A stretch of 64,000 bases of DNA from Methylomonas sp. LL1 (lineage in GTDB: Bacteria > Pseudomonadota > Gammaproteobacteria > Methylococcales > Methylomonadaceae). The position numbers and the translations under genes are program-made. A model generated the notes under the pieces. That model saw only the letters and a list, made by a program, of their open reading frames with translations. It searched no databases and was not told the DNA's origin. Shown piece after piece: positions 2,269-40,325 of this stretch (position 1 is its first letter; every line of letters begins with the position of its first letter). Where the stretch lies: assembly GCF_015711015.1 (NCBI RefSeq), contig NZ_CP064653.1, forward strand, positions 1,426,001-1,490,000. The letters run 5' to 3'.

Positions 2269-2423
2269 AAAATTTGCCCTTAAATTTGATCTGGAAGTTT
2301 AGCATCATTCTAATCGATAGTTCCAGGTAAAGCCTTTGCCCAAACACTGAATTGTCCGGACATTATCATGCATTGTCCCATCCCAGCCACCTCGGTTTTA
2401 TTCTACTGTGCCAACTCCATCTA

Positions 2424-3536
2424 TAGATACGGCCCCATGAAGTTTGAACTAAGGCGTTCATTGATTGTCTTGATGGCATGGATAAAGAAGACGCAAGATA
2501 TCAAACACTGGCGCAACTGCATGAAAGGCGAAAGCAGGTCGTGCGATTGCATAATAAAGGCATCAAGATCATGGCCATTGTCGGCTTGACGGGCCTGACC
2601 TATCCGACGGTCAGGCGAACGTTGGATTTGTATCAGCAAGGTGGTTGGCGAGCGATAAGTCCGACGAGCCGGGGCCGAGAAAAAGGCCAAGGTCGCATGC
2701 TAAACGCTGAGCAAGAACAGCAGATTCAGCGAGCCATCATCGACAAACGCCCGGAACAATTGAAAATGGATTTCTGTTTATGGAGCCGGGCCGCCGTGAT
2801 GCAACTCATTGAACAGGAATATGGGATAAAACTGCCGGTGAGAACCGTGGGCAAATATCTGGCCCGCTGGGGGTTTACGCCGCAAAAACCCATCAAAAAG
2901 GCTTACGAACAACGCCCTGAAGCGGTTCAGGCTTGGCTGAATGAACAGTATCCCGCCATTGCGGCCAAGGCAAAAGCCGAAGGCGGCGAAATTCACTGGG
3001 GCGATGAAACCGCATTGACCAACACCGATGTGCGAGGCAGAAGCTATGCGCCAGCAGGACAGACTCCGGTGACTTATGCGCCAGGCGGCAAACGCGAAAA
3101 ACTCTCCATGATTGCCACCGTCACCAATCAAGGAAAAACCCGTTGGATGATCATTGACGAAGCCTTCAACGCCGACAAACTCATCGAATTCCTTCAGGCG
3201 CTGATCAAGGATGCCGGCAAAAAAGTCTTTCTGATCGTCGATAACCTGCGCGTCCATCATGCCAAGCCGGTCAAGGCTTGGTTGGCAGAACACAGCCACC
3301 AAATCGAAATGTTTTATTTACCCAGCTATAGCCCGGAACTGAATCCAGAAGAACGCTTGAATGCCGATCTGAAGCAGGCGATGGGCAAAAAAGTCCCGGT
3401 CAGAACCAAAGCCAAATTGCGCGATGCCGCGAATGAACACATGGTGCGATTAGAACAATCCCCTGATAGGGTTCGGAGTTTCTTTCAGGATCAACCGGTG
3501 AAGTATGCCGCTTAAAACTTCATGGGGCCGGATCAA
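2424..3536 (+). mobile_element. IS630-family insertion sequence, apparently complete
   Basis: About 1.1 kb element with one transposase gene. The ends are imperfect inverted repeats: the left end contains CGGCCCCATGAAGTTT (2430-2445) and the right end its complement (3515-3530), with weaker similarity outward through a GAT. A TA dinucleotide lies directly outside each proposed end (2422-2423 and 3537-3538), fitting the TA target duplication of IS630/Tc1 elements. The exact outer boundary is uncertain by a few bases. It sits between gcvR and the TonB receptor, about 70 bp upstream of the first ModE-like operator. Confidence 0.85.
2478..3515 (+). CDS. IS630-family transposase
   Basis: 345 residues, full length for the family. 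The N-terminal third has helix-turn-helix character (LHNKGIKIMAIVGLTGLTYP). The DDE catalytic core is visible as the first Asp in IHWGDETALT, the second in FLIVDNLRVHHA, and the Glu in SPELNPEERLN. The frame is intact and no key residue is missing, so the enzyme could be active. It carries out cut-and-paste transposition into TA sites. Only transposase is encoded in the element. Confidence 0.95.
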   Translation: MDKEDARYQTLAQLHERRKQVVRLHNKGIKIMAIVGLTGLTYPTVRRTLDLYQQGGWRAISPTSRGREKGQGRMLNAEQEQQIQRAIIDKRPEQLKMDFCLWSRAAVMQLIEQEYGIKLPVRTVGKYLARWGFTPQKPIKKAYEQRPEAVQAWLNEQYPAIAAKAKAEGGEIHWGDETALTNTDVRGRSYAPAGQTPVTYAPGGKREKLSMIATVTNQGKTRWMIIDEAFNADKLIEFLQALIKDAGKKVFLIVDNLRVHHAKPVKAWLAEHSHQIEMFYLPSYSPELNPEERLNADLKQAMGKKVPVRTKAKLRDAANEHMVRLEQSPDRVRSFFQDQPVKYAA

Positions 3537-3606
3537 TAATTGAACTACTGATCGAAAAGACATCGAAAAAATATTATTTCTCATGGGGGAATAAGCTGTT
3601 TCCCAT

Positions 3607-3634
3607 ATCGTTATTTACTTGCATGCATAACGAT
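3607..3634. promoter_or_regulatory. ModE-box-like palindromic operator upstream of the TonB receptor
   Basis: Perfect inverted repeat ATCGTTAT (3607-3614) and ATAACGAT (3627-3634) separated by 12 bases. CGTTAT and ATAACG at a 12-base spacing is, from memory, the geometry of the E. coli modA operator bound by molybdate-loaded ModE. The 24-base core agrees at 19 positions with the site at 8604-8627. It lies about 155 bp before the receptor start. No modE gene is in the window, so the regulator is inferred. Confidence 0.55.
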
Positions 3635-3789
3635 TTAAACTAAGCCTGCCTTTTGCCAGACCTGTCCAGAACATGTCTGTTCACTTAACCCATAACCGGC
3701 AATGCGAAAACATCGGTTCATATCAAGACCAACCTGGTCAGGATAGTGAGCTTGTGATCCCGCATATCCGAACCAATAGCAGGTAAATC

Positions 3790-5784
3790 ATGCATACGCG
3801 CAGTCTATTTTTGACGATGGCTGTATTGTCGCGGTCGATATTCGCCGATGACGACGTTTTTGAACTCGGTGTCATCGAAATCGATGCCAAAATCGACCGA
3901 CAACAATTTTCCGATAAAGAAACACTTAGCGCCGAGGATATCGGCCGCAACAACCGTAACGACGTGGCGTCTGCCCTCAACCTGTTACCCGGCGTCTCGG
4001 TGCAAAATCTGGGGGCGCGCAACGAACGGCTGATCTATGTTCGCGGCTTCAACTCCCGGCAAGTGCCGCTGTTTATCGACGGCATTCCGGTCTATGTGCC
4101 TTACGACGGCAATGTCGATCTGAACCGCTTTACCACTTTCGACATCGGCCAGATCGATGTCAGCAAGGGCAACGCTTCGGTGTTGTATGGCCCCAACACC
4201 CTAGGCGGCAGCGTCAATCTGGTCAGCCGGCGTCCAAGCAAGCCGTTCGAAGCCAAGCTGACGACCGGCATGGGCATGGATTCCGAGTTTGATGCCAATT
4301 ACTATCAGACCGCGCTGAATTTCGGCGCCAATCAGGGCTCGTGGTATCTGCAGGGCGGCGCTTCGTATCTGGACCGGCAGTTCTGGCGCCTGTCCGACGA
4401 CTTCAAGCCGACGGCCAGCGAGGATGGCGGCATCCGCGAAAACTCCGGTAACACCGATTACAAAGGCAACATCAAACTAGGTTTGACCCCCAACGACAGC
4501 GACGAATACACGATCACTTACAGTAACCAGAGCGGCCGCAAGGATACGCCGCCCTATGCCGGCACGGATACCACCGTTACCCCGCGTTACTGGCGCTGGC
4601 CGTATTGGGACAAGGAGAGTGTGTACTTCCTGTCCCGAACCGAGTTTGGCGACGTGCATAGCGTCAAATTGCGCGCTTACCACGACAAGTTTCGCAACAG
4701 CCTTAAGTCTTACGACAACGCCGGTTACAGCAACATTACTCGGCCCTATGCCTTCGACAGCCATTATGACGATTACACCTTCGGCGGCGGCCTGGAATAT
4801 GGCAATACCTGGCTGGCCCGCAACGAATTCAAACTGACTTTGAGCTACAAGCAGGACGTGCATCGCGAAGTCAACAACACCAACCTGCCGCAGCAACGGT
4901 TCGCCGACGAACTGTTTTCCTATGCGATCGAAAACAGCTATACGCCGAGCGATACGCTGAAGTTTGTGGTCGGCACCAGTTACGAACAACAGCGTCAGTT
5001 GCAAGCGCAAAACTTAATCAACAACCAGCTGGTATCCTTCCCGCTCAGCGACACCAAAGATGCCTACAACATCCAGGGCAGCGCCTTTTACCGTATCGTC
5101 GACGATCTGCAACTGCACGCCAGCCTGGCCCGCAAGACCCGATTTCCGACCATCAAGGACCGCTATTCTTACCGCCTAGGAACGGCGCTTCCCAACCCGA
5201 GTTTGGCACCGGAAAGCGCGTTGAATTACGAGCTGGGCTTCGACGACAAAGCCTTCGGCCGCGTGGATTACGGCGCCAACCTGTTTTTCAGCCAGATCGA
5301 CGACACCATCGAAAGCGTCACCCTGCCCAACAGCAGTTGCAGCCGTCCGCCATGCTCGCAATTGCAGAATATCGGCCAGCAGGAAAATCTGGGCTTGGAG
5401 CTGTTCGCCACCGCGCAAATCAACGATCAATGGCGAGCTCATGCCAACTACACCTGGCTGGACCGCAACAACATCAGCAATCCTGGCATTTATCCGCTGG
5501 ACACGCCCAAACACAAGATCTTTACCTATCTGGAATATCAGCCTGTTCAATATCTGCGTCTGCTGGCCAGCACCGAATACAACGACAAACGCTACAGCAA
5601 CACCACCGGCACCCGGGTAGCAAAAAATTTTTTGATCGGCAACCTGAAGGCCACCTTCATCGCCAACAAACAACTGAACGCCGAATTCGGCGTCAACAAC
5701 GTCGCCGATCAGAACTTCGCCTACGAGGAAGGATTCCCCGAGCCAGGCCGCAACTACTTCGCCAACCTCAACCTTAGTTATTAA
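3790..5784 (+). CDS. TonB-dependent outer-membrane receptor, possibly for Mo/W or a metal chelate
   Basis: 664-residue outer-membrane receptor that takes up a scarce ligand using TonB-ExbBD energy. A short signal peptide (MHTRSLFLTMAVLSRSIFA) is followed by a TonB-box-like FELGVIEI, a plug domain (about 45-160, with LPGVSVQNLGARNERLIYVRGF and the YGPNTLGGSVNL motif) and a 22-strand-type barrel with the ESALNYELGF signature, ending in Tyr. Start: the ATG at 3790 follows AGCAGG, with an in-frame stop just upstream. It is the first gene of a unit with a solute-binding protein and a di-haem protein, and stands behind a ModE-like operator. The ligand is inferred from context; an iron siderophore remains possible. 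Confidence 0.93.
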   Translation: MHTRSLFLTMAVLSRSIFADDDVFELGVIEIDAKIDRQQFSDKETLSAEDIGRNNRNDVASALNLLPGVSVQNLGARNERLIYVRGFNSRQVPLFIDGIPVYVPYDGNVDLNRFTTFDIGQIDVSKGNASVLYGPNTLGGSVNLVSRRPSKPFEAKLTTGMGMDSEFDANYYQTALNFGANQGSWYLQGGASYLDRQFWRLSDDFKPTASEDGGIRENSGNTDYKGNIKLGLTPNDSDEYTITYSNQSGRKDTPPYAGTDTTVTPRYWRWPYWDKESVYFLSRTEFGDVHSVKLRAYHDKFRNSLKSYDNAGYSNITRPYAFDSHYDDYTFGGGLEYGNTWLARNEFKLTLSYKQDVHREVNNTNLPQQRFADELFSYAIENSYTPSDTLKFVVGTSYEQQRQLQAQNLINNQLVSFPLSDTKDAYNIQGSAFYRIVDDLQLHASLARKTRFPTIKDRYSYRLGTALPNPSLAPESALNYELGFDDKAFGRVDYGANLFFSQIDDTIESVTLPNSSCSRPPCSQLQNIGQQENLGLELFATAQINDQWRAHANYTWLDRNNISNPGIYPLDTPKHKIFTYLEYQPVQYLRLLASTEYNDKRYSNTTGTRVAKNFLIGNLKATFIANKQLNAEFGVNNVADQNFAYEEGFPEPGRNYFANLNLSY

Positions 5785-5801
5785 GCCGCTGGATACCAAC
5801 C

Positions 5802-7097
5802 ATGAAAAACTTGCAACTATTGATCGCCCTGATCCTGGGCCTGACTGCTTATCCTGCCCTTGCCAAGGAAAAATTGACGGTATTGACCGCGTTTCACGAA
5901 GAGGTGGTATCAAGATTCGAAACTGCCTTCGAGCAGCAAAATCCCGACATCGACCTGCAAATCCTGTGGCGCATGCCGCACGATGCGCAACCTTACCTTA
6001 GCCAGCCCCAACAAGGCGGCGTCGATGTCTATTGGTCGGCCGCGCAACAGAACTTCAATGTGTTAAAACAGCAGGGCGCCTGGCAAAAACTTGGCATAGA
6101 CCGTAGCGGATTGGCCGACCGTCTCGGCGCGATGCCTCTGTCCGATCCGGAAGGCACTTTTTGCGTCAGCGAGATGGCCGGCTACGGCTTCGCGGTGAAT
6201 CCGGCTTATCTGCAAAAACACGGCCTGCCGCTGCCCAAGACCTGGCTGGACTTGGCCGATGCCCGCTACCAAGGACATTTGGCCCTGCCGGTGCCGTCCA
6301 AGGTCGGCTTCGCGCCGATGATGATAGACAGCGTCTTGCGGCAATATGGTTGGGAGCAAGGCTGGGCGGTGTTGGCCGGCATCGCCGCAAACGCCCGCCT
6401 GGTGGAATCCGGCGCGACGTTCATCACCGACATCATCGGCTCCGGCGAGCGCGGTATCGGCCCGGCGATCGACTTTTTCACGGCTTCGGCCATCGCCAAC
6501 GGCGCGCCGCTGCAATTCGTCTATCCCGAGCCGACCGCTTATTCGCCGGCGCATGTCGCCATTACCGCCGCCAGCCAGCATACCGAAGCGGCCAGACGTT
6601 TCGTCAGCTTCGTGTTGTCGGATTCCGGCCAGAAAATACTGTTTCATCCGGATATCCGCAAATTGCCGGCGCGCCCCGGCGTTTATAAAGATAAGCCCGA
6701 CGGCTATTTCGACCCCTTCGCCGCCTCGGCCGAGCATCCGGTGGTTTACGACCCCAACGGCGCAATACAGCGCTTGGCCTTGAACAATGCTTTGTTCGAC
6801 CGGCTGTTCAGCGATCATCTGCAACGCCTGCAGAATCTCTGGCTCGGTTTGCGAAAGCAGGAACAACATGCCGATGCTGCTAAGGCGGCCCGGCTCTTGA
6901 AGCTTCGCCAATTGTTGACGGCGCCGCCCATCGCTGCGGCCAAGGCTCAAGAACCGGAACTGCAAAAGCTGTTCGCCCGCCGCGCCAACGACACCCAAGC
7001 CGAAGCAGAAGCCAAGTCTCTCGAACAAGCCTGGGCCAAGGACATCGAGCAGCGTTATGCCGAAGCCGAAAAGCTGCTGCTGGAGCTGGAACGATGA
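5802..7097 (+). CDS. Periplasmic iron-type solute-binding protein with helical C-terminal extension
   Basis: 431 residues. The signal peptide MKNLQLLIALILGLTAYPALA precedes a type 2 periplasmic binding fold (about 25-320) resembling Fe3+-type (FbpA/AfuA) or PgtC-like binding proteins: LTVLTAFHEEVVSRFETAFE at the start, then the GYGFAVNPAYLQ and PLPKTWLDLADARYQGHLALP landmarks. From about residue 325 an Ala/Glu/Lys-rich, coiled-coil-prone tail runs to the end, beyond the usual family length. No ABC permease or ATPase is adjacent. It lies 17 bp after the TonB receptor and overlaps the di-haem gene, so it may receive the receptor's ligand, or act as a PgtC-like sensor. That role is inference. 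Confidence 0.8.
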   Translation: MKNLQLLIALILGLTAYPALAKEKLTVLTAFHEEVVSRFETAFEQQNPDIDLQILWRMPHDAQPYLSQPQQGGVDVYWSAAQQNFNVLKQQGAWQKLGIDRSGLADRLGAMPLSDPEGTFCVSEMAGYGFAVNPAYLQKHGLPLPKTWLDLADARYQGHLALPVPSKVGFAPMMIDSVLRQYGWEQGWAVLAGIAANARLVESGATFITDIIGSGERGIGPAIDFFTASAIANGAPLQFVYPEPTAYSPAHVAITAASQHTEAARRFVSFVLSDSGQKILFHPDIRKLPARPGVYKDKPDGYFDPFAASAEHPVVYDPNGAIQRLALNNALFDRLFSDHLQRLQNLWLGLRKQEQHADAAKAARLLKLRQLLTAPPIAAAKAQEPELQKLFARRANDTQAEAEAKSLEQAWAKDIEQRYAEAEKLLLELER

Positions 7098-8449
7098 ACG
7101 CGCGACTGCCTCATCTGTTGTTGAGCTTGAGCTGTTGCCTGGCCGGCCCGCCGCTGGCTCAAGCCGAAACCGGTTTCGAAATCGCCGATGCCAGCCGGGA
7201 AGCCTACTCGCGAATTCATCCGGACCTACCCAAGGCAAAATCGGATGAAGTTTTTCGCGGACGCAGCCTGTTCCGGCAAAGCTGGGTGATTCCACCGGCC
7301 AAGGACATCGAGATCGCAGGGCTTGGCCCGCTGTATAACCAGATTTCCTGTCTGTCCTGTCATCCCAAAAACGGCCGAGGCCAGCCGCCGGAATCACCGC
7401 AACAAGCCATGCGTTCCATGCTGATACGTTTGAGCCTGCCCGGAGAGGATGAGCATGGCGGACCTTTGCCACATCCGGTGTATGGCGGCCAATTGAACGA
7501 ACAAGGCATACCCGGAGTGCCGGGCGAAGGGCGCGTCAGCGTCGATTATCGCGAGGAAACAATCAAGCTGGCGGACGGCGAATCGGTAAAGTTAAGGAAG
7601 CCTGTCTACGCCTTTGTCGATCCGCAATACGGCAAACTTCCCGCCGACATTCTTTATTCCCCGCGCGTCGGGCCTTCGGTTTTCGGTCTCGGTTTATTGG
7701 AAGCCATCGATGAACAAACCATCCGCCGATTGGCCGAAGACGGCAAACGCCAAGGTTTGCAAGGCCATCCCAATCTGGTCTGGGATGCCGAGCGGCAGCG
7801 CAGCATCATAGGCCGCTTCGGCCTGAAAGCCAACGTCGCCAGCCTCAAACAACAGATCGCCGGGGCATTCATCGGCGACATGGGCATCACCTCATCGCTG
7901 CACCGCCAAGAAAATTGCGGCGCCGCGCAAACCGCCTGCAAACAGGCGCCGTCGGCCCGGCAGCCGGAATTGAGCGATGCGCAGCTCGACGCGGTATTGC
8001 TGTATCTGCGTCTACTGCAAGTCCCGGCGCGGCGTAACAGTGATGAGTCCAACGTCAGCCAGGGTGAAAAGCTGTTTACAGAAATCGGCTGCGGGACCTG
8101 CCACACGCCGACACTGATCACCGGAGACTTTCCGGAACTACCGATACTGTCCAAACAAACCATACACCCCTACACCGATTTGTTGGTGCACGACATGGGC
8201 GAAGGCTTGGCCGATGGCCGGCCGGACTTTCAGGCCGGTGGCAAGGAATGGCGCACGCCGCCCTTGTGGGGCATAGGTCTGGTCGAGCGCATCAACGAAC
8301 ACAGCTATTTTCTGCACGACGGCCGCGCCCGCAATCTTGCCGAAGCGGTGCTGTGGCACGGCGGCGAAGCCTTGCCGAGTAAACAACGATTTGCGGATTT
8401 ACCCGCCGGCAAACGGCAATCGCTGATTCGCTTCTTGGAATCGTTATGA
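7094..8449 (+). CDS. Di-haem oxidoreductase of the DHOR (DUF1111) family
   Basis: 451 residues, exported by an N-terminal signal (cleavage probably after ...GPPLAQA). Two c-type haem sites are visible: CLSCH at residues 86-90 and CGTCH at 333-337. The family landmarks GLGPLYNQISC, VGPSVFGLGLLEAI and the C-terminal FLHDGRARNLAEAVLWHGGEA fit DHOR proteins, distant relatives of bacterial di-haem peroxidases and MauG. Its ATG overlaps the preceding stop by four bases, so translation is coupled with the solute-binding protein. It would act in the periplasm, perhaps changing the redox state of a metal or chelator, which is speculative. Confidence 0.88.
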   Translation: MNARLPHLLLSLSCCLAGPPLAQAETGFEIADASREAYSRIHPDLPKAKSDEVFRGRSLFRQSWVIPPAKDIEIAGLGPLYNQISCLSCHPKNGRGQPPESPQQAMRSMLIRLSLPGEDEHGGPLPHPVYGGQLNEQGIPGVPGEGRVSVDYREETIKLADGESVKLRKPVYAFVDPQYGKLPADILYSPRVGPSVFGLGLLEAIDEQTIRRLAEDGKRQGLQGHPNLVWDAERQRSIIGRFGLKANVASLKQQIAGAFIGDMGITSSLHRQENCGAAQTACKQAPSARQPELSDAQLDAVLLYLRLLQVPARRNSDESNVSQGEKLFTEIGCGTCHTPTLITGDFPELPILSKQTIHPYTDLLVHDMGEGLADGRPDFQAGGKEWRTPPLWGIGLVERINEHSYFLHDGRARNLAEAVLWHGGEALPSKQRFADLPAGKRQSLIRFLESL

Positions 8450-8603
8450 CGCACAGTCGCTATACCTACATAACATAACGAAATGTCCGAAACACAACAT
8501 TGTTTATGGCTTGGCATAACAACAATAAACAAAACAATTCAATAACATAACAGCACATCCGACAACTGGCGCGTCTATTGCTTAATAGCAATTACCATTG
8601 TCG

Positions 8604-8627
8604 CGTTATATACTTAAATGCGTAGCG
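8604..8627. promoter_or_regulatory. Second ModE-box-like operator, upstream of the outer-membrane barrel gene
   Basis: CGTTAT (8604-8609), 12-base spacer, GTAGCG (8622-8627). The left half is a full match to the ModE-type arm and continues TATAT; the right half is weaker. It agrees with 19 of 24 positions of the operator at 3609-3632, including shared spacer bases (ACTT and ATGC). That goes beyond simple dyad symmetry. It lies about 100 bp before the start at 8729, inside the 279-bp gap after the DHOR gene. Confidence 0.5.
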
Positions 8628-8728
8628 AATTAAACCGGAGTTATCTTTTTAATCTATCCGAATCAGTTCAGTACGCGTCGACGCGCCAATGCCGGTGACA
8701 ACTCCATACTTGCGATTATAGGTAATCG

Positions 8729-10228
8729 ATGATGCACAAAACAGCTCTTACCAGCGTTGCCAACCCTATCTTCGGCCTGCTTGTCGCCAGCGGTTTCTAC
8801 ATCGCCGGCAGCGAACCTATTCAGGCCGCGGAAAAGAAAAGCTACACCAAGCCGGCATTTGCGGCTTTCGAAAGCCAAATGTCTGATGCCTTGTTGGGCA
8901 GCGACAAGTACGAAAAACCGGTCTGGAATCTGCACGATGCGCTGAACTTGCCGAAATGGTTGGCTATGTCGTTGGAGCAGCGTACCCGCTACGAAACCCA
9001 GGACGGCCAATTCAAGGCCAACGGCAGGGGCGGCGACCAGCAAGTCGCGCTGCAAACCGACTTCTGGCTGCAAGCCAGTTTGGGTAAGTTCCGCGCCGGC
9101 GCCGAATTTCTGGATGCACGCGCACTGGGCGCCGACAGCGGTTCCGGCGTCAACAACACCCACGCCGACACGGCCGATTTCATCCAAGGTTATCTAGCCT
9201 GGGCCGATCAGAATATTTTTTACAGCGGCTACGGTGCCGAAGTCATCGCCGGCCGCCAAACCCTCAATTTCGGTAGCCGCCGGCTGGTCGCCAGAAATGC
9301 GATGCGCAACACCATCAACAGCTTTACCGGCGTCAGGCTCAGACTGGTCGATTACAATCACTGGCAATTCAACGGCTTCGTGACGATGCCGGTCAATCGC
9401 TATCCGACCGCAGCCGCCGATATTCTCGACGAAACCCACGAGTTCGACGAGGAAGATACCCACACCTGGTTTTCCGGCGGTATTCTGGAAGTCAGCGACC
9501 TGTTCTGGGGCATCAACAGCGATGTTTATCTGTATCATCTGGACGAAGGCGACAGCCAACGCAACCAGACCCGCAACCGCCGCTATTTCACGCCCGGCAT
9601 GCGTTTTTACCTGAAACCCAATAAGGGGCAATTCGACTTCCAAACCGAAACCATAGGCCAGTTCGGCACCGTGCGCTCCAGCACCGCCGCCAGCAATGGC
9701 AGGAATCAGGATCATGCCGCCTGGTATCAGCATTTGGATGTCGGTTATACCTTCGATATTCCGTGGTCGCCACGCCTGGCCGCCGAATACGATTATGCCA
9801 GTGGCGATCACGATCCCAACGACACCAAAGACCAGCGCTTCGATACCTTGTACGGGGCGCGACGTTTCGAGTTTGGCGCGACCGGCATTTACGGCGCTTT
9901 CGCCCGTAGCAATATCAACACGCCGGGTTACCGCATCACCGCCGCGCCCCGTTCCGACGTGCAACTCGGGCTCAGCCACCGCTTCTTCTGGCTGGCGGAA
10001 GACAAGGACAGTTGGACCACGGCCAATCTGCGCGATACTAGCGGCAAAACCGATAATTTTATCGGCCAGCAGCTCGAAATGACTGCGCGCTGGGATTTCA
10101 ACAGCAGCCTGAATTTCGAAACCGGTTGGGCGCATTTGTTCAAGGGAACCTTCGCCAAGGACACCGCCAATGCGCCGACCAAGGAAGACGTCGATTATTT
10201 CTACGTGCAAAGCCAACTGCGGTTTTGA
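8729..10228 (+). CDS. Alginate-export-family outer-membrane beta-barrel protein
   Basis: 499 residues. Signal peptide up to about residue 34 (IQAAEKK...). The mature part is rich in alternating aromatic strands and ends in Phe (YFYVQSQLRF), typical of an outer-membrane barrel. The stretch from ALNLPKWLAMSLEQRTRYE onward, with GRQTLNFGSRRLVAR, is characteristic of the alginate_exp (AlgE-like porin) family. Such barrels are common beside uptake systems for small anions, and here TSUP and modABC follow. An export role cannot be excluded. AGGTAA precedes the double ATG; either ATG could be used. A ModE-like operator lies upstream. Confidence 0.85.
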   Translation: MMHKTALTSVANPIFGLLVASGFYIAGSEPIQAAEKKSYTKPAFAAFESQMSDALLGSDKYEKPVWNLHDALNLPKWLAMSLEQRTRYETQDGQFKANGRGGDQQVALQTDFWLQASLGKFRAGAEFLDARALGADSGSGVNNTHADTADFIQGYLAWADQNIFYSGYGAEVIAGRQTLNFGSRRLVARNAMRNTINSFTGVRLRLVDYNHWQFNGFVTMPVNRYPTAAADILDETHEFDEEDTHTWFSGGILEVSDLFWGINSDVYLYHLDEGDSQRNQTRNRRYFTPGMRFYLKPNKGQFDFQTETIGQFGTVRSSTAASNGRNQDHAAWYQHLDVGYTFDIPWSPRLAAEYDYASGDHDPNDTKDQRFDTLYGARRFEFGATGIYGAFARSNINTPGYRITAAPRSDVQLGLSHRFFWLAEDKDSWTTANLRDTSGKTDNFIGQQLEMTARWDFNSSLNFETGWAHLFKGTFAKDTANAPTKEDVDYFYVQSQLRF

Positions 10229-10243
10229 TGGCTTGGTATCGGG

Positions 10244-11029
10244 ATGAAAACCAATAAGCCGGCTGTTTTCGGCAGCGGCGCACTCATAGGGATATTGGGC
10301 GGGCTGATAGGCTTGGGTGGGGCCGAGTTTCGGCTGCCGCTGTTGATCGGTCTGTTCGGATTCGCTTCACTAGAGGCGGTGATTCTGAACAAAACCATGA
10401 GCCTGATCGTCGTGGCCTCGGCCTTGCCGTTCAGGGCCGGCGCCGTCCCGTTCGCCGTTCTGATGGAACATTGGCCGGTGATCCTGAATCTGTTGGCCGG
10501 CAGCCTGTTGGGGGCTTGGTTCGGCGCCAGTTGGGCGCTTCGATTGAAAAGCGAAACCCTATATCGGGTGATTGCGGTGTTGCTGGTGTTGATCGCGATA
10601 CTGCTGCTATTCGCCCATAACCCGGCAAACAGTCATCAGCCGGCGTTATCCGGCAGTGCGTTGGTGCTGGCCGGAGTCGCGGCGGGTTTAGTCATCGGCC
10701 TGGTTGCCTCGCTGATGGGCGTAGCTGGCGGCGAATTGTTGATCCCGACCCTGGTTTTGTTGTTCGGCATTGACATCAAGCTGGCCGGCAGCCTGTCGCT
10801 GGCGATCAGCCTGCCGACGATGCTGACTGGCATCGCCCGTTACAGTGCGGATCAAAGCTTTGCGGTGGTCGGCCGCAGCCGGGACTTTGTGTTGGTGATG
10901 GCCATCGGATCGTTGTTCGGTGCGTTTATCGGCGGGCAATTGGTCGGCATGATACCCGCCGAAACCTTATTGCCGATTTTGGCGGCGATACTGTCAATCT
11001 CGGCGATCAAGGTTTGGCGGCATGCATAA
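10244..11029 (+). CDS. TSUP (TauE/SafE) family permease
   Basis: 261 residues with about eight hydrophobic helices arranged as two related halves, each with a glycine-rich start (GILGGLIGLGGAEFRLPLL and a second GLVASLMGVAGGELLIPTL), the signature of sulfite exporter TauE/SafE proteins. Family members move small organic or inorganic anions, mostly sulfur oxyanions, across the inner membrane. It begins 15 bp after the barrel gene and is probably in the same transcript. The spacing to modA (about 117 bp) contains a repeat. A role with molybdate, tungstate or sulfate is only suggested by position. Confidence 0.88.
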   Translation: MKTNKPAVFGSGALIGILGGLIGLGGAEFRLPLLIGLFGFASLEAVILNKTMSLIVVASALPFRAGAVPFAVLMEHWPVILNLLAGSLLGAWFGASWALRLKSETLYRVIAVLLVLIAILLLFAHNPANSHQPALSGSALVLAGVAAGLVIGLVASLMGVAGGELLIPTLVLLFGIDIKLAGSLSLAISLPTMLTGIARYSADQSFAVVGRSRDFVLVMAIGSLFGAFIGGQLVGMIPAETLLPILAAILSISAIKVWRHA

Positions 11030-11031
11030 AA

Positions 11032-11120
11032 ACGTAGGGTATGCATTTATGCCCTTTGGGTATCGCATACCATTTTCAAATGTTTAACCGTCACAAGGTA
11101 CGCAATGCGTGCCCTACACA
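11032..11120. repeat. Palindromic repeat cluster before modA
   Basis: The gap between the TSUP gene and modA is filled with GTAGGGTATGC, GGTATCGCATACC and GGTACGCAATGCGTGCCCTA units, i.e. related GGTAYGC/GCRTACC half-palindromes. The last unit resembles the perfect palindrome at 62177-62205, so this is a dispersed REP-like family. It may affect mRNA folding between TSUP and modA. No ModE-like site is seen here. Confidence 0.6.
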
Positions 11121-11146
11121 TTTTTTGTAACCTTTTGGAGAACCCT

Positions 11147-11917
11147 ATGCTAAATCATCGTTTTTTCCGCCTGGCTGTCGCCGCCTGGCTGCTGTCGGTC
11201 GCCCCATCGATTTTTGCCGAAACGGTGTTGGTCGCCGTGGCCGCCAACTTCACCAAGCCGATGACCGAGATCGCCGAGGCCTTTGAAAAATCCACCGGCC
11301 ACGGCGCCAAGCTGTCGTTCGGTTCCTCCGGCAAATTCGTCGCCCAAATCGAGAATGGCGCGCCGTTCGAAGTGTTCATGGCCGCCGATCAGGAAAACGC
11401 GGTCAAATTGCAAAGCGCCGGACTGGCAGTGGCCGACACCCGCTTTACTTACGCCCTAGGCAAGCTGGTGTTGTGGTCGGCGACTCCGGGTTTGGTCGAC
11501 GATCGAGGCGAAGTGCTTGCCAAAGGCGGTTTCAAACATCTGGCGCTGGCCGATCCCAAACTGGCGCCCTACGGCGCGGCAGCTGTTGAAGTCTTGAAAA
11601 ACTTGGGGCTATTGGAAAAACTGCAGCCTTTGCTAGTCCAGGGCGAAAACATCTCGCAAACCCATCAATTCATCAGCACCGGCAACGCCGAGCTAGGTTT
11701 CGTTGCCTTGTCCCAAGTCATCGAAAACGGCAAGATAGCCGGCGGCTCGGGCTGGATTGTACCGGATGCGCATTACGCTCCGATTCGGCAGGATGCGATT
11801 TTGCTGACTAAAGGCGCCGAAAATTCCGCCGCGCCGGCGCTGCTGCAATTTTTAAAATCGCCGGAGGCTCGGGCGATTATTCGTAAATACGGTTACAACC
11901 TGCCTAGTCAACCCTGA
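11147..11917 (+). CDS. modA: Molybdate ABC transporter, periplasmic binding protein
   Basis: 256 residues when started at the ATG at 11147, which has TTGGAG at good spacing; an ATG at 11105 would add an unlikely leader. Signal peptide MLNHRFFRLAVAAWLLSVAPSIFA. The mature protein has VLVAVAANFTKPMTEIAEAF and LSFGSSGKFVAQIENGAPFEVFMAAD, the oxyanion-binding Ser-rich loop regions of ModA. It binds molybdate (and tungstate) in the periplasm and delivers it to ModB. Two bases separate it from modB. Confidence 0.95.
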   Translation: MLNHRFFRLAVAAWLLSVAPSIFAETVLVAVAANFTKPMTEIAEAFEKSTGHGAKLSFGSSGKFVAQIENGAPFEVFMAADQENAVKLQSAGLAVADTRFTYALGKLVLWSATPGLVDDRGEVLAKGGFKHLALADPKLAPYGAAAVEVLKNLGLLEKLQPLLVQGENISQTHQFISTGNAELGFVALSQVIENGKIAGGSGWIVPDAHYAPIRQDAILLTKGAENSAAPALLQFLKSPEARAIIRKYGYNLPSQP

Positions 11918-11919
11918 AC

Positions 11920-12606
11920 ATGCTAAGTTCCGCCGATATTGTCACGCTGTGGCTGACCTTCAAGGTCGCCAGCTTGGCTACCTTGATCATGCTGATGTTG
12001 GGCACGCCGCTGGCCTGGTGGCTAGCCCGTACCAGCTCGCGCTTCAAAGGCATCTGCAATGCGCTGGTGGCCTTGCCGCTGGTGCTGCCGCCGACGGTGC
12101 TGGGATTCTATCTGCTGGTGATGCTTGGACCGAAAGGCCCCATCGGCCAGCTGACCAGCGAATTGGGCTGGGGCACCTTGCCGTTTACCTTTCCGGGTTT
12201 AGTGGTGGCCTCGGTGTTTTATTCCCTGCCGTTCGTGGTGCAGCCCTTGCAGACCTCGTTCGCGGCAATCGGCAGACAACCGCTGGAAGCCGCCGCAACA
12301 CTGCGAGCCGGGCCGCTGGATACTTTTTTCAGTGTGGTAATGCCCCTGGCGAAACCCGGCTTCATGACCGCCGCGATCCTGGGCTTTGCCCATACGGTCG
12401 GCGAATTCGGCGTGGTGTTGATGGTGGGCGGCAATATTCCCGACAAGACCCGCGTGGTGTCGGTGCAAATCTATAACCACGTCGAAGCGTTGGAATACCA
12501 ACAAGCCCACTGGCTGGCCGGCGGCCTGCTGCTGTTTTCCTTTACGGTGTTGCTGGTGCTGTACAGCGCGCTGAAGACTCACCCCGTTGCCCATCAACTC
12601 AAATGA
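11920..12606 (+). CDS. modB: Molybdate ABC transporter, membrane permease
   Basis: 228 residues with about five to six membrane helices. The ModB landmarks are present: ALVALPLVLPPTVLGFYLL near residues 46-64, and the EAA-type coupling loop in the AAATLRAGPLDTFFSVVMPLAKPG region, which contacts the ATPase. It forms the molybdate channel as a homodimer. The ATGA overlap with modC and the two-base gap from modA show a single operon. Confidence 0.95.
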   Translation: MLSSADIVTLWLTFKVASLATLIMLMLGTPLAWWLARTSSRFKGICNALVALPLVLPPTVLGFYLLVMLGPKGPIGQLTSELGWGTLPFTFPGLVVASVFYSLPFVVQPLQTSFAAIGRQPLEAAATLRAGPLDTFFSVVMPLAKPGFMTAAILGFAHTVGEFGVVLMVGGNIPDKTRVVSVQIYNHVEALEYQQAHWLAGGLLLFSFTVLLVLYSALKTHPVAHQLK

Positions 12607-13676
12607 CGACGCCAATCAACGCAAAATTCGATCTCGACTACGGCGAATTTCGGCTCAAAGTAGACCTGGTTTTGCCTGGCAGCGGCGTTACGGTGCTGTT
12701 CGGCCATTCCGGTTCCGGCAAGACCACGCTGCTGCGCTGCATAGCCGGTTTGCAGCAGGCACCGAATGGTTTTTTACAAATCAACGGCGAGGTCTGGCAG
12801 GACAGCGAACGTAACTTGTTTCTGCCTACCCATAAGCGTTCGTTGGGCTATGTGTTTCAGGAAGCCAATCTGTTTCCGCATCTGTCGGTCAAGGGCAATC
12901 TGCAATTCGGCTTGAAGCGCACCGGCTTGGCCGGTGCCGATTTGACACATATCCTGGAACTCTTGGGCATCGCTCATCTATTGGAACGCATGCCGGACGG
13001 GCTGTCCGGCGGCGAACGCCAGCGGGTGGCCATCGCCAGGGCGCTGGCGCTGAATCCGCAAATTCTGTTAATGGACGAGCCGCTGGCGGCCCTGGATTTC
13101 AAGCGCAAGCAGGAAATCCTGCCCTATCTGGGTCGCTTGCATCGGGAATTGAACATACCTGTGCTGTATGTCACCCATTCCCAGCAGGAAGTCGCGCAAC
13201 TGGCGGATCATCTGGTGATCATGGACGAAGGCAAAGCGCTGGCTTCCGGCCCGCTGTCGGAAACCTTGAGCCGGCTGGATGTGCCGCTGGCCCACGATAG
13301 GGAAGCGGCGACGGTTTGGCAAGTGACGGTTGCCGGCCATGAAGCGCTATACCATTTAATACATATCGAATTTGATGGTGGTAAACTCTACCTGCCAAGC
13401 TTTGCTGCCGAAATCGGCGCGCCGCTCAGGATACAGATTCACGCCCGCGACGTCAGCATCACGCTGCAAGAACCCACCGCCACCAGCATTCTCAATGTTT
13501 TGCCGGCCGTGGTTACCGACATTGCCGATGATGACAGCGGCCAGAGCGTGGTGCGTTTACTCGTCGGCAGTCTACCGTTGTTGGCCCATATCACCCGCAA
13601 GTCCGCCGTATTGTTGGACTTACGGGCCGGTATGCGGGTATTCGTGCAAATCAAGGGCACATCGATACTAAATTAA
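12603..13676 (+). CDS. modC: Molybdate ABC transporter, ATPase with C-terminal Mop domain
   Basis: 357 residues. The ATPase domain (1-230) is complete: Walker A GHSGSGKTT, Q-loop VFQEANLFPH, signature LSGGERQRVAIARAL, Walker B ILLMDEPLAALD and switch His in YVTHSQQE. The last 70 residues (from about 285, RIQIHARDVSITLQEPTATSI) form a Mop/TOBE domain that binds oxyanion and can give trans-inhibition. It overlaps modB by four bases. It is the active partner for comparison with the degraded paralog at 14249. Confidence 0.95.
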   Translation: MTTPINAKFDLDYGEFRLKVDLVLPGSGVTVLFGHSGSGKTTLLRCIAGLQQAPNGFLQINGEVWQDSERNLFLPTHKRSLGYVFQEANLFPHLSVKGNLQFGLKRTGLAGADLTHILELLGIAHLLERMPDGLSGGERQRVAIARALALNPQILLMDEPLAALDFKRKQEILPYLGRLHRELNIPVLYVTHSQQEVAQLADHLVIMDEGKALASGPLSETLSRLDVPLAHDREAATVWQVTVAGHEALYHLIHIEFDGGKLYLPSFAAEIGAPLRIQIHARDVSITLQEPTATSILNVLPAVVTDIADDDSGQSVVRLLVGSLPLLAHITRKSAVLLDLRAGMRVFVQIKGTSILN

Positions 13677-13698
13677 TTCACCCATAAGGAGATTCATC

Positions 13699-14127
13699 AT
13701 GAAAGCAAGTGCACGTAATCAATTCACCGGTACAGTTCGCGACGTGATCGTCGGCGCGGTCAATGCCGAAGTTCATGTCGGTCTGAAAGGTGGCGAGATC
13801 ATCGCCGCCACGGTAACCAAGGAATCGGTCGACGAACTCGGCATCAAATCCGGCATGGATGTCATTGCGATGGTCAAGGCACCGCAAGTCATTATCGTTA
13901 CCGATTTCGGCGGTTATAAACTGTCGGCTCGTAACCAATTGCCGGGTACGGTGACTGCCGTCAAGCACGGCGCGGTTAATTCCGAGATCGATATCGAACT
14001 CAAGGGCGGCGATAAACTTGCCGCTACCATCACCAATGATAGCGTCGAAACATTGGGCTTGGCTAAGGGACAAGCGGCTACGGCGGTATTCAAGGCCGGC
14101 GCGGTGATTTTGGCGGTCGCCGGTTAA
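13699..14127 (+). CDS. Di-Mop molybdate-binding protein (molbindin, ModG type)
   Basis: 142 residues made of two Mop domains in tandem (about 2-70 and 73-140). Both begin with the same pattern, SARNQFTGTV and SARNQLPGTV, and have the xGAVNxE motif (VGAVNAEVHV, HGAVNSEIDI). Such proteins form trimers that hold about eight molybdate ions and buffer the cell's Mo. AAGGAG lies before the ATG, so strong translation is expected. It follows modC by 22 bp. A Mo store would suit an organism making Mo-nitrogenase. Confidence 0.93.
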   Translation: MKASARNQFTGTVRDVIVGAVNAEVHVGLKGGEIIAATVTKESVDELGIKSGMDVIAMVKAPQVIIVTDFGGYKLSARNQLPGTVTAVKHGAVNSEIDIELKGGDKLAATITNDSVETLGLAKGQAATAVFKAGAVILAVAG

Positions 14128-14171
14128 GCCGCTAGCGGTTTGAAAATAACTTCCCGTTGACCCGGACAGTT

Positions 14172-14223
14172 CTCACCGGTGCGGGAGGGGCTTAGGCCGC
14201 GACCATAATATTGCGTCGCGGCC
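14172..14223. repeat. REP-like repeat with GGCCGCGAC dyad
   Basis: The 121-bp gap between the Mop gene and the second ATPase holds GCGGGAGGGGCTTA followed by GGCCGCGAC (14195-14203) and GTCGCGGCC (14215-14223), a nine-base perfect stem. The same family recurs at 55376-55432, where both GGGAGG flanks are present. The stem could cut transcription or stabilise upstream mRNA. Confidence 0.7.
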
Positions 14224-14248
14224 GAGCCATCTTTACGATGGAGGCAGC

Positions 14249-15394
14249 ATGTTGCTGGAAATGAATGTAAAACTACGCCGGGGCCATTTTGACCTTAGCA
14301 CGCAATTATCGGTCGGCGATACCAACATCGGCCTATTCGGTCAATCCGGTGCCGGCAAAAGTACGTTGCTGAGCTTGATCGCCGGCACCCTGCAGCCTCA
14401 AAGCGGACAAATCGTGCTGGACGGAAAAATTTTATTCGATAGCCGCAAGGGCATCGTGATGCCGCGCGAGCAACGTCCCGTGGGCGCGGTATTACAAGAC
14501 GACTGCGCCGATTCGACCGAAACCGTGCGCGATAACTTGACCGCCGCCTATCAACGCACGCTGAAACAACGGCGTTTGTTCAAACTGGATTATTTGGTCG
14601 GGCTGTTGGAACTAGGCCCCCTGCTCGATCATGCGATCGAATTGCTGTCCGCCGGCGAACGCCAACGCGTGGCCTTGGCACGCTCGCTACTGAAATCGCC
14701 AAAACTGTTGTTATTGGACGATACCTTCGCTGCCATCGGCAACGCTTACCGCCAGCAATTACTGCCGATATTGAAACGGCTGCAAGATGAATTCGGCCTA
14801 CCGGTGCTGTATGCCAGCCAATCGCTGGGCGAAATTCTGGATTTGACCGACAGTCTGATCGTGCTGGAACATGGTCAAATACTGCGTAGCGGCCCCTTAC
14901 GCGAAGTCGCCAAGCAACAAGGCATCTTGCGTTATCTGGGCATCCGCCAAATCGACAATATCCTGCCCGTCGGCATCCGCGATCACGACTATCAAGCCGG
15001 TTGCAGCCTGGCCGACAGTTTCGGCCTACCGCTGGCCCTGCCGTTACGTCCGCATTTAATGCTAGGCAGCCAAACCCAGGTATCGATACGCGCCAACGAC
15101 ATCGCCTTATCGCGCGGCTTTATCGAGGGCATATCAATCCAGAATCAGATCAAGGGACGAATCTGCGCGTTGATTCCCAGCGGCGACAGCCTGATCGTGC
15201 AGGTCGATTGCGGCGGCACGCTACTGGCCGAAATCACGCCGGGCGCCTGCCGGGACATGGACCTGCGGGAAGGCGACTGGGTCTACTGCCTAATTAAAAC
15301 CCATGCCATCGTCTATTTGGCTGAATTGGACACCCTACCCTATCAACGCGTGGTCAATCATCGGGATGGTTACTATTATTTGAGTGCCGGCTAA
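14249..15394 (+). CDS. ModC-like ABC ATPase with degraded catalytic motifs
   Basis: 381 residues, laid out like ModC: an ABC ATPase domain (1-235) and a C-terminal Mop/TOBE region (about 290-360). Walker A (GQSGAGKST) and the signature (LSAGERQRVALARSLL) are kept. The Walker B Glu is Asp (LLLLDDTFAAI), the D-loop Asp is lost (AIG instead of ALD), and the switch His is Gln (YASQSLGE, where ModC has YVTHSQQE). It may therefore bind ATP and Mo but hydrolyse ATP poorly. No second permease gene is near. Possible roles are a regulatory partner of ModB or a Mo sensor, both inferred. GGAGG precedes the ATG. Confidence 0.8.
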   Translation: MLLEMNVKLRRGHFDLSTQLSVGDTNIGLFGQSGAGKSTLLSLIAGTLQPQSGQIVLDGKILFDSRKGIVMPREQRPVGAVLQDDCADSTETVRDNLTAAYQRTLKQRRLFKLDYLVGLLELGPLLDHAIELLSAGERQRVALARSLLKSPKLLLLDDTFAAIGNAYRQQLLPILKRLQDEFGLPVLYASQSLGEILDLTDSLIVLEHGQILRSGPLREVAKQQGILRYLGIRQIDNILPVGIRDHDYQAGCSLADSFGLPLALPLRPHLMLGSQTQVSIRANDIALSRGFIEGISIQNQIKGRICALIPSGDSLIVQVDCGGTLLAEITPGACRDMDLREGDWVYCLIKTHAIVYLAELDTLPYQRVVNHRDGYYYLSAG

Positions 15395-38687: not shown

Positions 38688-40325
38688 ATGAGCAAAAAAA
38701 CACCGGAATATCTACCAAGCCAGATAGTCGCCGGAGCGGCCGAGGTGTTGGCGGCCGACACTCCGCCGGCAAACCCGAAATCGAATAGCCGCCATAAAAG
38801 CAAAAGCGTACCCCTGTCATTATTTGTGGCCGCGGTGGATCAATCGCCGGTCGCCATTTCGATAACCGATAAAAAAGCCAACATTCTGTATATAAACCAG
38901 GCCTTTACCCAGGTGACCGGCTATCAGGCCGCCGAAATACTGGGGGAGAATGAATCGAAGTTATCCGATAAATCGACCCCACGTCAGGTGTATTACGACC
39001 TGTGGCATACCATCTCCCGTAAGCAAGTCTGGCATGGCCGCTTGGTCAATCGGCGTAAACAGGGCCAACGTTATCTGGCCGACCTGACAATTTCTCCGAT
39101 GCTGGATGAACACGGCTCGGTCAGCCACTACATCGGCATGCACCGCGACGTCACCGAGACTCACCACGCCGAACAACAAGTCAACAATCAAAAGCAGTTA
39201 ATCGAATCGGTGATCAATGCTTCGCCGGTAGCGATGGTAGTGTTGGACAAGGACAATCGCATTGTTCTGGATAACCAGATGTACAAAATGTTGATCAGCG
39301 AACTGGGGCATGCCGAACCGGCGCTATTTTTTCTGGATGCCTTGCGCCAGGAACTTGGTGACTTGTGGTCATCGGAAATGGACTTGCATAACGGTTTCAA
39401 TAATCGCGAAATCCGGGTTGAAGGCATCGGCCGTCGCGGTACCCGCTGGTTTTCCTGCTCGGGCAACTGGTTCAGCGAAAACGACACCCAGGCGGACAGT
39501 TTCTTTTCCAAACAATCCAGAGATTATTTGCTGCTGTCGATCAACGACATCAGCCTGCAGCGCCGCCAGCAAGAAAAACTGCAATTGGAAACCCTACGCA
39601 GCCTAATGGCCGAGGAAGAGCACATGCGCAGCATCCGGGAAACCTTGCTGGGCGCAATGCACCAAATCCGCCAACCGTTGAACCAAATCCATGCGGCCAT
39701 CCAAATCATGGCCCAACGCAACGACACCCATAACCAGCCATTGAAGGAATTGCTGAATCAAGTGCAGAGCATGGGAGAGGAAACCTTATCCACATTACAG
39801 CGATGCGTGCCGGAAATACCTGAGACGGCAATGATGTCGGTCAATATCAATCAATTACTGCATGAAGTGATGCTGCTCTATAGCTACAAATTTTTAGCCA
39901 ACGGCGTGGTGATCGACTGGCAGCCCAATCCGGTATTGCCTTCGATTTTGGGGTCGGAGAACAAATTACGCATGCTATTCAAACAACTGATCGATAACGC
40001 CGTGAACGCGATGAACCGGGTCGGCAGCAAGGAACGCTCGATTCATATCAGCACGGCCCTGGAAAACGACTGGGTACGGGTGGCACTGGCCGATAGCGGC
40101 CCTGGCATTCCGGTCAATCAGCGCAACAAAGTGTTCGAGCCGTTTTTTACCACTCAGCATAACGTGGGGAGCGCGCAATCAGGCATGGGCCTGGTCATGG
40201 CACGGGAAATCGTCAATCAACACAGCGGCATCATCGAAATCGATCCGGATTACAGCCCCGGTTGCTGTTTTAACATCAGCTTTCCTTGTCAACATAATGC
40301 CTCCAGGGTGAACACCCATGAATGA
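38688..40325 (+). CDS. nifL: Nitrogen fixation regulator NifL (anti-activator)
   Basis: 545 residues from the ATG at 38688 (a TTG at 38679 is the alternative). PAS1 (about 45-145) with DQSPVAISITDKKANILYINQAFTQVTGYQ should bind FAD and sense redox; PAS2 is at about 165-290. A helical region with His near 325 (GAMHQIRQPLNQIHAAI) and a GHKL ATP-binding domain (NQLLDNAVN-like LIDNAVNAMNR, DSGPGIP, SGMGLVMAR) follow. NifL binds and inhibits NifA in O2 or when nitrogen is plenty. The N-terminal 40 residues are a low-complexity extension. It overlaps nifA by eight bases. Confidence 0.95.
   Translation: MSKKTPEYLPSQIVAGAAEVLAADTPPANPKSNSRHKSKSVPLSLFVAAVDQSPVAISITDKKANILYINQAFTQVTGYQAAEILGENESKLSDKSTPRQVYYDLWHTISRKQVWHGRLVNRRKQGQRYLADLTISPMLDEHGSVSHYIGMHRDVTETHHAEQQVNNQKQLIESVINASPVAMVVLDKDNRIVLDNQMYKMLISELGHAEPALFFLDALRQELGDLWSSEMDLHNGFNNREIRVEGIGRRGTRWFSCSGNWFSENDTQADSFFSKQSRDYLLLSINDISLQRRQQEKLQLETLRSLMAEEEHMRSIRETLLGAMHQIRQPLNQIHAAIQIMAQRNDTHNQPLKELLNQVQSMGEETLSTLQRCVPEIPETAMMSVNINQLLHEVMLLYSYKFLANGVVIDWQPNPVLPSILGSENKLRMLFKQLIDNAVNAMNRVGSKERSIHISTALENDWVRVALADSGPGIPVNQRNKVFEPFFTTQHNVGSAQSGMGLVMAREIVNQHSGIIEIDPDYSPGCCFNISFPCQHNASRVNTHE

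Follow-up and report, generated by a model that had tools for sequence, protein, structure and literature searches.

Does molybdenum have a route of its own through the outer membrane? Molybdate is generally thought to enter via porins. The question is raised by a locus of Methylomonas sp. LL1 (genome of 4.92 Mb in 2 contigs) in which a gene for a TonB-dependent receptor stands close to modABC, within a stretch of 64,000 nucleotides (G000:C2:1426001-1490000) that was analysed whole and is called the window here. Comparison with other genomes leads us to favour, at a probability of roughly 70%, the reading that the island at 3.6-15.4 kb of the window is a ModE-regulated, high-affinity molybdenum (possibly tungsten) uptake system reaching the outer membrane. 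The argument is carried by the genes, by the ModE-type boxes ahead of them, by the recurrent linkage of the receptor to molybdenum genes and by the clade that the receptor family forms. The island holds the following features:

3609..3632: operator 1, predicted ModE-type box with 0 mismatches to CGTTAT-N12-ATAACG, 181 bp ahead of the receptor start; relatives have boxes at similar positions
3790..5784, + strand: TonB-dependent receptor, 664 aa, plug and barrel (PF07715, PF00593), within the family clade
5802..7097, + strand: periplasmic substrate-binding protein (SBP) with a helical extension at the C-terminus (PF13343; structure model, mean pLDDT 93; Foldseek)
7094..8449, + strand: di-haem oxidoreductase (DHOR; PF06537), both CxxCH motifs invariant in 7 aligned sequences
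8604..8627: operator 2, predicted ModE-type box with 2 mismatches to CGTTAT-N12-ATAACG, 125 bp ahead of the barrel gene
8729..10228, + strand: outer-membrane barrel of the Alginate_exp family (PF13372)
10244..11029, + strand: TSUP (TauE/SafE) permease (PF01925)
11105..11917, + strand: modA (TIGR01256, above cut-off; solved ModA relatives)
11920..12606, + strand: modB (TIGR02141, above cut-off)
12603..13676, + strand: modC (TIGR02142, above cut-off)
13699..14127, + strand: molbindin with two Mop domains (TIGR00638, two stretches)
14249..15394, + strand: second ModC-like ATPase with a TOBE domain (262 bits on TIGR02142, the ModC equivalog, under its cut-off of 285)

Domain profiles bear out the gene content proposed in an earlier sequence-only reading of this DNA, which had named the receptor, SBP, DHOR, barrel, TSUP permease, modABC and molbindin. 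The genes look like two transcripts, one running from operator 1 through receptor, SBP and DHOR, the other from operator 2 through barrel, TSUP permease, modABC, molbindin and the second modC.

Operator 1 reads CGTTATTTACTTGCATGCATAACG. The same reading had counted 19 of 24 positions common to the two operators and a half-site spacing of 12; the count is exact, and the spacing agrees with the fit of both sites to CGTTAT-N12-ATAACG. This pattern occurs without mismatch at 2 places in the genome, site 1 being one. A fuller operator pattern, partly circular in that it was built from the window sites and those of relatives, gave 99 matches genome-wide, with the window sites ranking first (0 mismatches) and second (1 mismatch); the remaining matches, at 2 or more mismatches, were not above the reversed control (52/47 versus 61/58). 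Across the window, matches to the hexamers alone with 3 mismatches allowed were at chance (25 matches, 21.2 expected), and the weaker places within modC (13345-13368) and nifL (40141-40164) were left out as boxes, 2-3 mismatches being the level of chance. Because such single-genome tests lie near background, the weight of the operator case rests on conservation in other genomes. An imperfect box-like stretch with a spacing of 11 (CGCTATACCTACATAACATAACG) was seen at 8455-8477, upstream of operator 2. A modE gene, which the earlier reading had proposed to look for, was found outside the island at G000:C2:1538562-1539374, ~97 kb from it and ~49 kb past the window end; it encodes 270 aa with a helix-turn-helix (HTH) and two Mop/TOBE domains, the HTH match of 93-95 bits being slightly under the curated cut-off of 98.5. 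Three further box-like places in the genome, checked by eye for a regulon beyond the island, showed nothing molybdenum-related; the modE locus and the left flank were also viewed.

Conservation was followed among methanotrophs. The receptor and the SBP each occur in the same 9 of 151 genomes of the host's taxonomic family, representing 5 of 29 genera, and the stretches of 8 relatives were compared. All 8 carry mod genes in the stretch with the receptor unit (ModE-length Mop protein in 7, modABC in 6; L048 is an 11.3-kb contig with mop and modC2, and L050 has modC2 only), so the gene neighbourhood expected by the sequence-only reading is indeed kept. Its operators are conserved too, a ModE-type box at 0-2 mismatches being present in 8/8: before the receptor with 0 mismatches in 2 relatives, 1 in 3 and 2 in 2, and in the eighth (L050) with 0 mismatches 461 bp upstream of the receptor, ahead of a divergent modC2. 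In several relatives the operator sits between a divergent modE and the receptor gene, and the divergent modE of L048, L049, L051 and L064 occupies the place that a transposase gene has before operator 1 of the window. This transposase gene (2422-3538), by eye IS630-like and with inverted repeats of 23-24 bp, lies directly ahead of operator 1 and may be a trace of modE having been lost or moved. The barrel gene has its own box in the window, L049 and L051, and not clearly in L054 (3 mismatches) or L055. The SBP and DHOR genes are internally truncated in L054 (10772-11495) and L055 (6498-10572), and the L055 receptor gene is also interrupted, so the unit appears to be decaying there. The suspicion that the second ModC had lost its catalytic Glu was dropped: among six orthologues, DE is kept in L049 and L051 and DD stands in four.

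To place the receptor in its wider family, named-species genomes were scanned with the receptor alignment and two peptide patterns, confirming 111 loci, of which 80 were kept; this set gives no prevalence estimate and includes near-duplicates (three Alcaligenes, four Pandoraea, and L064 with L071 of one metagenome-assembled genome). As controls, 40 regions around other PF00593 receptors, drawn from 17 of the same genomes, were hand-picked among the matches listed; 39 were used, as L187 lies on the contig of a family member. Receptor profile scores were at least 378 bits in the family and at most 94 in controls, and in a FastTree tree a branch with support 100 separates the 83 family receptors from the 39 controls. 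The receptors nearest to that of the window belong to Methylococcaceae. A modE or modA gene lay within 9 kb of the receptor in 38/80 family loci versus 0/39 controls (Fisher 8e-9, on non-independent rows) and within 5 kb in 34/80 versus 0/39 (modE/Mop 29 versus 0, modA 18 versus 0), a few modE matches being weak, such as that of L079 at 30 bits. The linkage was seen in 18/24 loci of Gammaproteobacteria, 11/33 of Betaproteobacteria, 4/6 of unplaced Pseudomonadota, 0/1 of Alphaproteobacteria, 2/6 of Thermodesulfobacteriota, 2/2 of Bacteroidota and 0/1 of Bdellovibrionota; in both Bacteroidota loci a ModE-domain protein, scoring under its cut-off, stands directly ahead of the receptor.

Two alternative modules recur beside the receptor, either SBP-DHOR or a FecBCD-type ATP-binding cassette (ABC) set. 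Within 5 kb, family and control counts were 22 versus 0 for the SBP and 25 versus 0 for DHOR, both with the methanotrophs included, 29 versus 0 for a FecB-type SBP, 24 versus 1 for a FecC-type permease, 20 versus 0 for Oxidored_molyb and 6 versus 0 for FmdE. At these 20 loci (L104, L105, L112 and L124 among them) the Oxidored_molyb-domain protein is small and encoded after or beside the receptor, and each of the 6 Thermodesulfobacteriota loci has an FmdE-type gene in its receptor operon (for example L083, 12176-12808, and L079, 14874-15452). In Nevskia (L080, 3018-5066) the receptor gene is in two frames, directly downstream of modE. The receptor is also carried by 23 plasmid records, five of which were examined: E. 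coli with modD, Azospirillum with SBP-DHOR-receptor-tonB, Paracoccus with an annotated iron ABC set and a box at 1 mismatch, and Methylorubrum and Sphingomonas, where no molybdenum gene was seen.

Boxes were sought as the best match to CGTTAT-N12-ATAACG from -450 to +150 of the receptor start. The best match had 0 mismatches in 9 of the 80 loci, 1 in 16, 2 in 13 and 3 or more in 42. Boxes at up to 1 mismatch thus precede 25/80 family receptors and 0/39 control receptors (0/39 even at up to 2), and ten scrambled palindromes each matched at up to 1 mismatch in at most 1 of 80 loci. Outside the methanotrophs such boxes occur in 19/71 loci, and at the positions left open by the pattern they tend to resemble the inner arms of the E. 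coli ModE consensus, as given in the accessible part of PMC545781.

The family member of E. coli itself closes an operon of the order FecB-FecC-ATPase-methyltransferase-modD-receptor. Its receptor scores 566 bits on a broad profile (controls at most 174) and falls inside the family in the tree, and its modD matches TIGR01334 at 504 bits. At -48 of the operon's first gene stands CGATATATA-TGTAAA-TATATAGCG, with 0 mismatches to the E. coli ModE consensus; across six sequences of the operon the box has 0 mismatches in three and 1 in three, 2000 shuffles never did better than 3, and the best Fur match at this promoter has 5-6 of 19 positions mismatched. The receptor is present in 2102 of 5426 complete E. 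coli genomes (~39%) and the promoter stretch in 2098. It is annotated as iron uptake and its neighbours as iron transport, and it reaches 125 bits on the ferric siderophore receptor model TIGR01783 (cut-off 223.5). A cluster prrA-modD-yc73-fepC, regarded as an iron or siderophore system, is probably the same operon. The FecB-type SBPs of E. coli and L083 have as their best characterised solved relative HI_1472 (MolA).

A less biased sample of 398 genomes across the phylum was searched with the broader receptor profile, scoring three candidates per genome. Ten matches were obtained at 1e-80; one (G390, 282 bits) was dropped from the family, as it falls with the controls in the tree. All 9 strong family genomes, the window's included, carry modE at 2e-20 or better, versus ~135/398 overall by a hand count of matches down to 1e-16 (p 5e-5); 3 of the 8 non-window members are not new relative to the named loci. 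Among these eight, modE or modA lies in the stretch in 3, a box at up to 1 mismatch in 4 and a 2-mismatch box in 1, and no box in L215, L220 and L221. Taken with the E. coli operon, these patterns make it likely, if with slightly less assurance than for the island, that a ModE-regulated class of TonB receptors imports molybdenum (or tungsten) chelates in Pseudomonadota, Bacteroidota, Thermodesulfobacteriota and some two-fifths of complete E. coli.

Several results weigh against a ModE-regulated molybdenum system. No box at 2 mismatches or better precedes the receptor in 42/80 loci, 15/80 have none of the SBP-DHOR, FecB/FecC, Oxidored_molyb and FmdE modules, and just 1/7 Acidobacteriota members show the modE or modA linkage. 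The rows of the family-control comparisons are not independent, given the two-pattern scan and the near-duplicates. The window's modABC lacks its own box, none being present within 300 bp of modA, and across this genome the E. coli ModE consensus at 3 mismatches finds 16 places, both window sites among them, versus 23 for the control, so that this genome-wide test alone shows nothing. The receptor and SBP are absent from 11/11 sampled genomes of the window's own genus, which makes the island patchy. Upstream of the L052 and L053 receptors, finally, there is a Fur-like match with 5/19 mismatches; a match as good arose in 0 and 2 of 100 shuffles, respectively.

These weak Fur-like matches are among the points in favour of an iron route, in which the receptor would take up ferric siderophores, the SBP would bind ferric iron, and molybdenum genes would be adjacent because molybdenum enzymes and nitrogenase need iron. 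The nearest solved receptors are indeed those for iron, colicin I and B12 (CirA, BtuB, FepA), FbpA-type proteins appear among the fold neighbours of the SBP, and databases annotate iron. We consider this route unlikely: the ModE-type boxes and the modE/modA linkage of the family are found at none of the 39 control receptors, and the Tyr-Tyr pair that provides the metal ligands of ferric-binding proteins is replaced by Phe-Phe in 23/24 SBPs and Phe-Pro in 1/24, unlike an FbpA-type site. The window receptor scores 137 bits on TIGR01783, below the curated 223.5. Fur control, which the sequence-only reading had named as what would speak against it, appears improbable at the window receptor, where the best upstream Fur match has 8/19 mismatches.

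The SBP bears on another reading, that the receptor is regulated by molybdenum and carries something else than this metal, such as a phosphorylated compound or an organic cofactor. The window SBP was modelled from 24 sequences at a mean pLDDT of 93.0 (a model from 7 sequences, at 46.7, was discarded), and judged by this model its closest solved relatives in Foldseek are binders of pyridoxal phosphate and sugar phosphates. The receptor, however, is linked to modABC and to FecBCD-type ABC modules, and not to genes of cofactor use alone, which makes such a cargo rather improbable. In 11 stretches of the wider SBP superfamily, 8 held SBP-permease-ATPase sets, L231 had no transporter match and the receptor was absent from all. 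Distant SBP relatives in L232 and L233 stand beside what by eye appear to be a sensor kinase, a response regulator and a major facilitator superfamily transporter; the fold family may also serve in sensing. A system mainly for tungstate, or for molybdenum and tungsten without preference, could be argued from the low scores of several modA/modB neighbours, which could be other oxyanion types, from the desulfo-bacterial members of the family and from the ability of ModE and Mop domains to bind both molybdate and tungstate. It is a shade less probable still, as ModA, ModB and ModC of the window score above the cut-offs of the molybdate models, with the tungstate models far under theirs, and nifEN lie close by. 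Least credible is that boxes and neighbourhood arose by chance or by hitch-hiking within a metal island: in this genome the window sites do not rise above background when scored with the E. coli consensus, but the association returns in several phyla and is seen in none of the matched controls.

On the favoured reading of a ModE-regulated uptake system, the island would work as follows. ModE-molybdate acts as a repressor in E. coli. When cell molybdate is low, ModE would leave both operators, and the first transcript would yield the TonB-dependent receptor, the periplasmic binding protein and DHOR, the second the barrel, TSUP permease, ModABC, molbindin and second ModC. The receptor, energised by TonB, would import some form of molybdenum, in all likelihood chelated by an organic compound, and in the periplasm DHOR and SBP would set the metal free or keep hold of it; DHOR could oxidise the organic ligand, freeing molybdate. 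Since SBP-DHOR brings no permease in the window, hand-over to ModABC, which would carry molybdate inward, is the simplest inference. The barrel is suggested as a molybdenum route by its operator and operon, and may be a passive channel. Two proposals of the sequence-only reading, that the receptor unit is under ModE and that it has to do with molybdenum, are supported by conserved operators and by context far outside methanotrophs. Its wording that the system serves the nearby nitrogenase is not: nifE, nifN, nifX, nifL and nifA, at 25.6-41.8 kb of the window, are neighbours and no more, and the link is not supported because the family also occurs in Comamonas, Delftia, Stenotrophomonas, Alcaligenes and E. 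coli, which are mostly not nitrogen fixers.

Among known systems, H. influenzae MolBCA (HI_1470-1472) is a FecBCD-type ABC module like those beside some family members, and to our knowledge is not associated with a receptor; none of the ten island proteins scanned matched the FecCD permease or Peripla_BP_2 SBP of such a module. CirA, BtuB and FepA share plug and barrel with the island receptor, whereas its family forms a clade apart from the 39 other receptors and has ModE-type boxes and molybdenum gene neighbours. The E. coli-type ModE-ModABC system resembles the present one in a ModE with HTH and two Mop domains, in ModA, ModB and ModC and in box layout (E. coli consensus from PMC545781); the island differs in adding the TonB receptor, SBP, DHOR and barrel, and in having modE outside it. 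An outer-membrane step for molybdate is provided in P. aeruginosa by a type VI secretion system with ModA and IcmP, which, in the accessible part of PMC8602904, employs a secreted ModA and a peptidase-like outer-membrane protein and no TonB receptor of this family. Among the papers listed in a search of the open-access literature, none dealt with a TonB receptor for molybdenum or under ModE. We know of no receptor for molybdenum-siderophore complexes such as those of Azotobacter.

If the reading is true, the family would supply the outer-membrane half that has been missing from the capture of molybdenum by chelates. Its boxes should be readable by the well-studied ModE of E. coli, so that the question can be put to a direct test. 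Thousands of genomes would then have iron annotations corrected, and the receptor would serve to indicate molybdenum stress, be it in methanotrophs, nitrogen fixers or gut bacteria.

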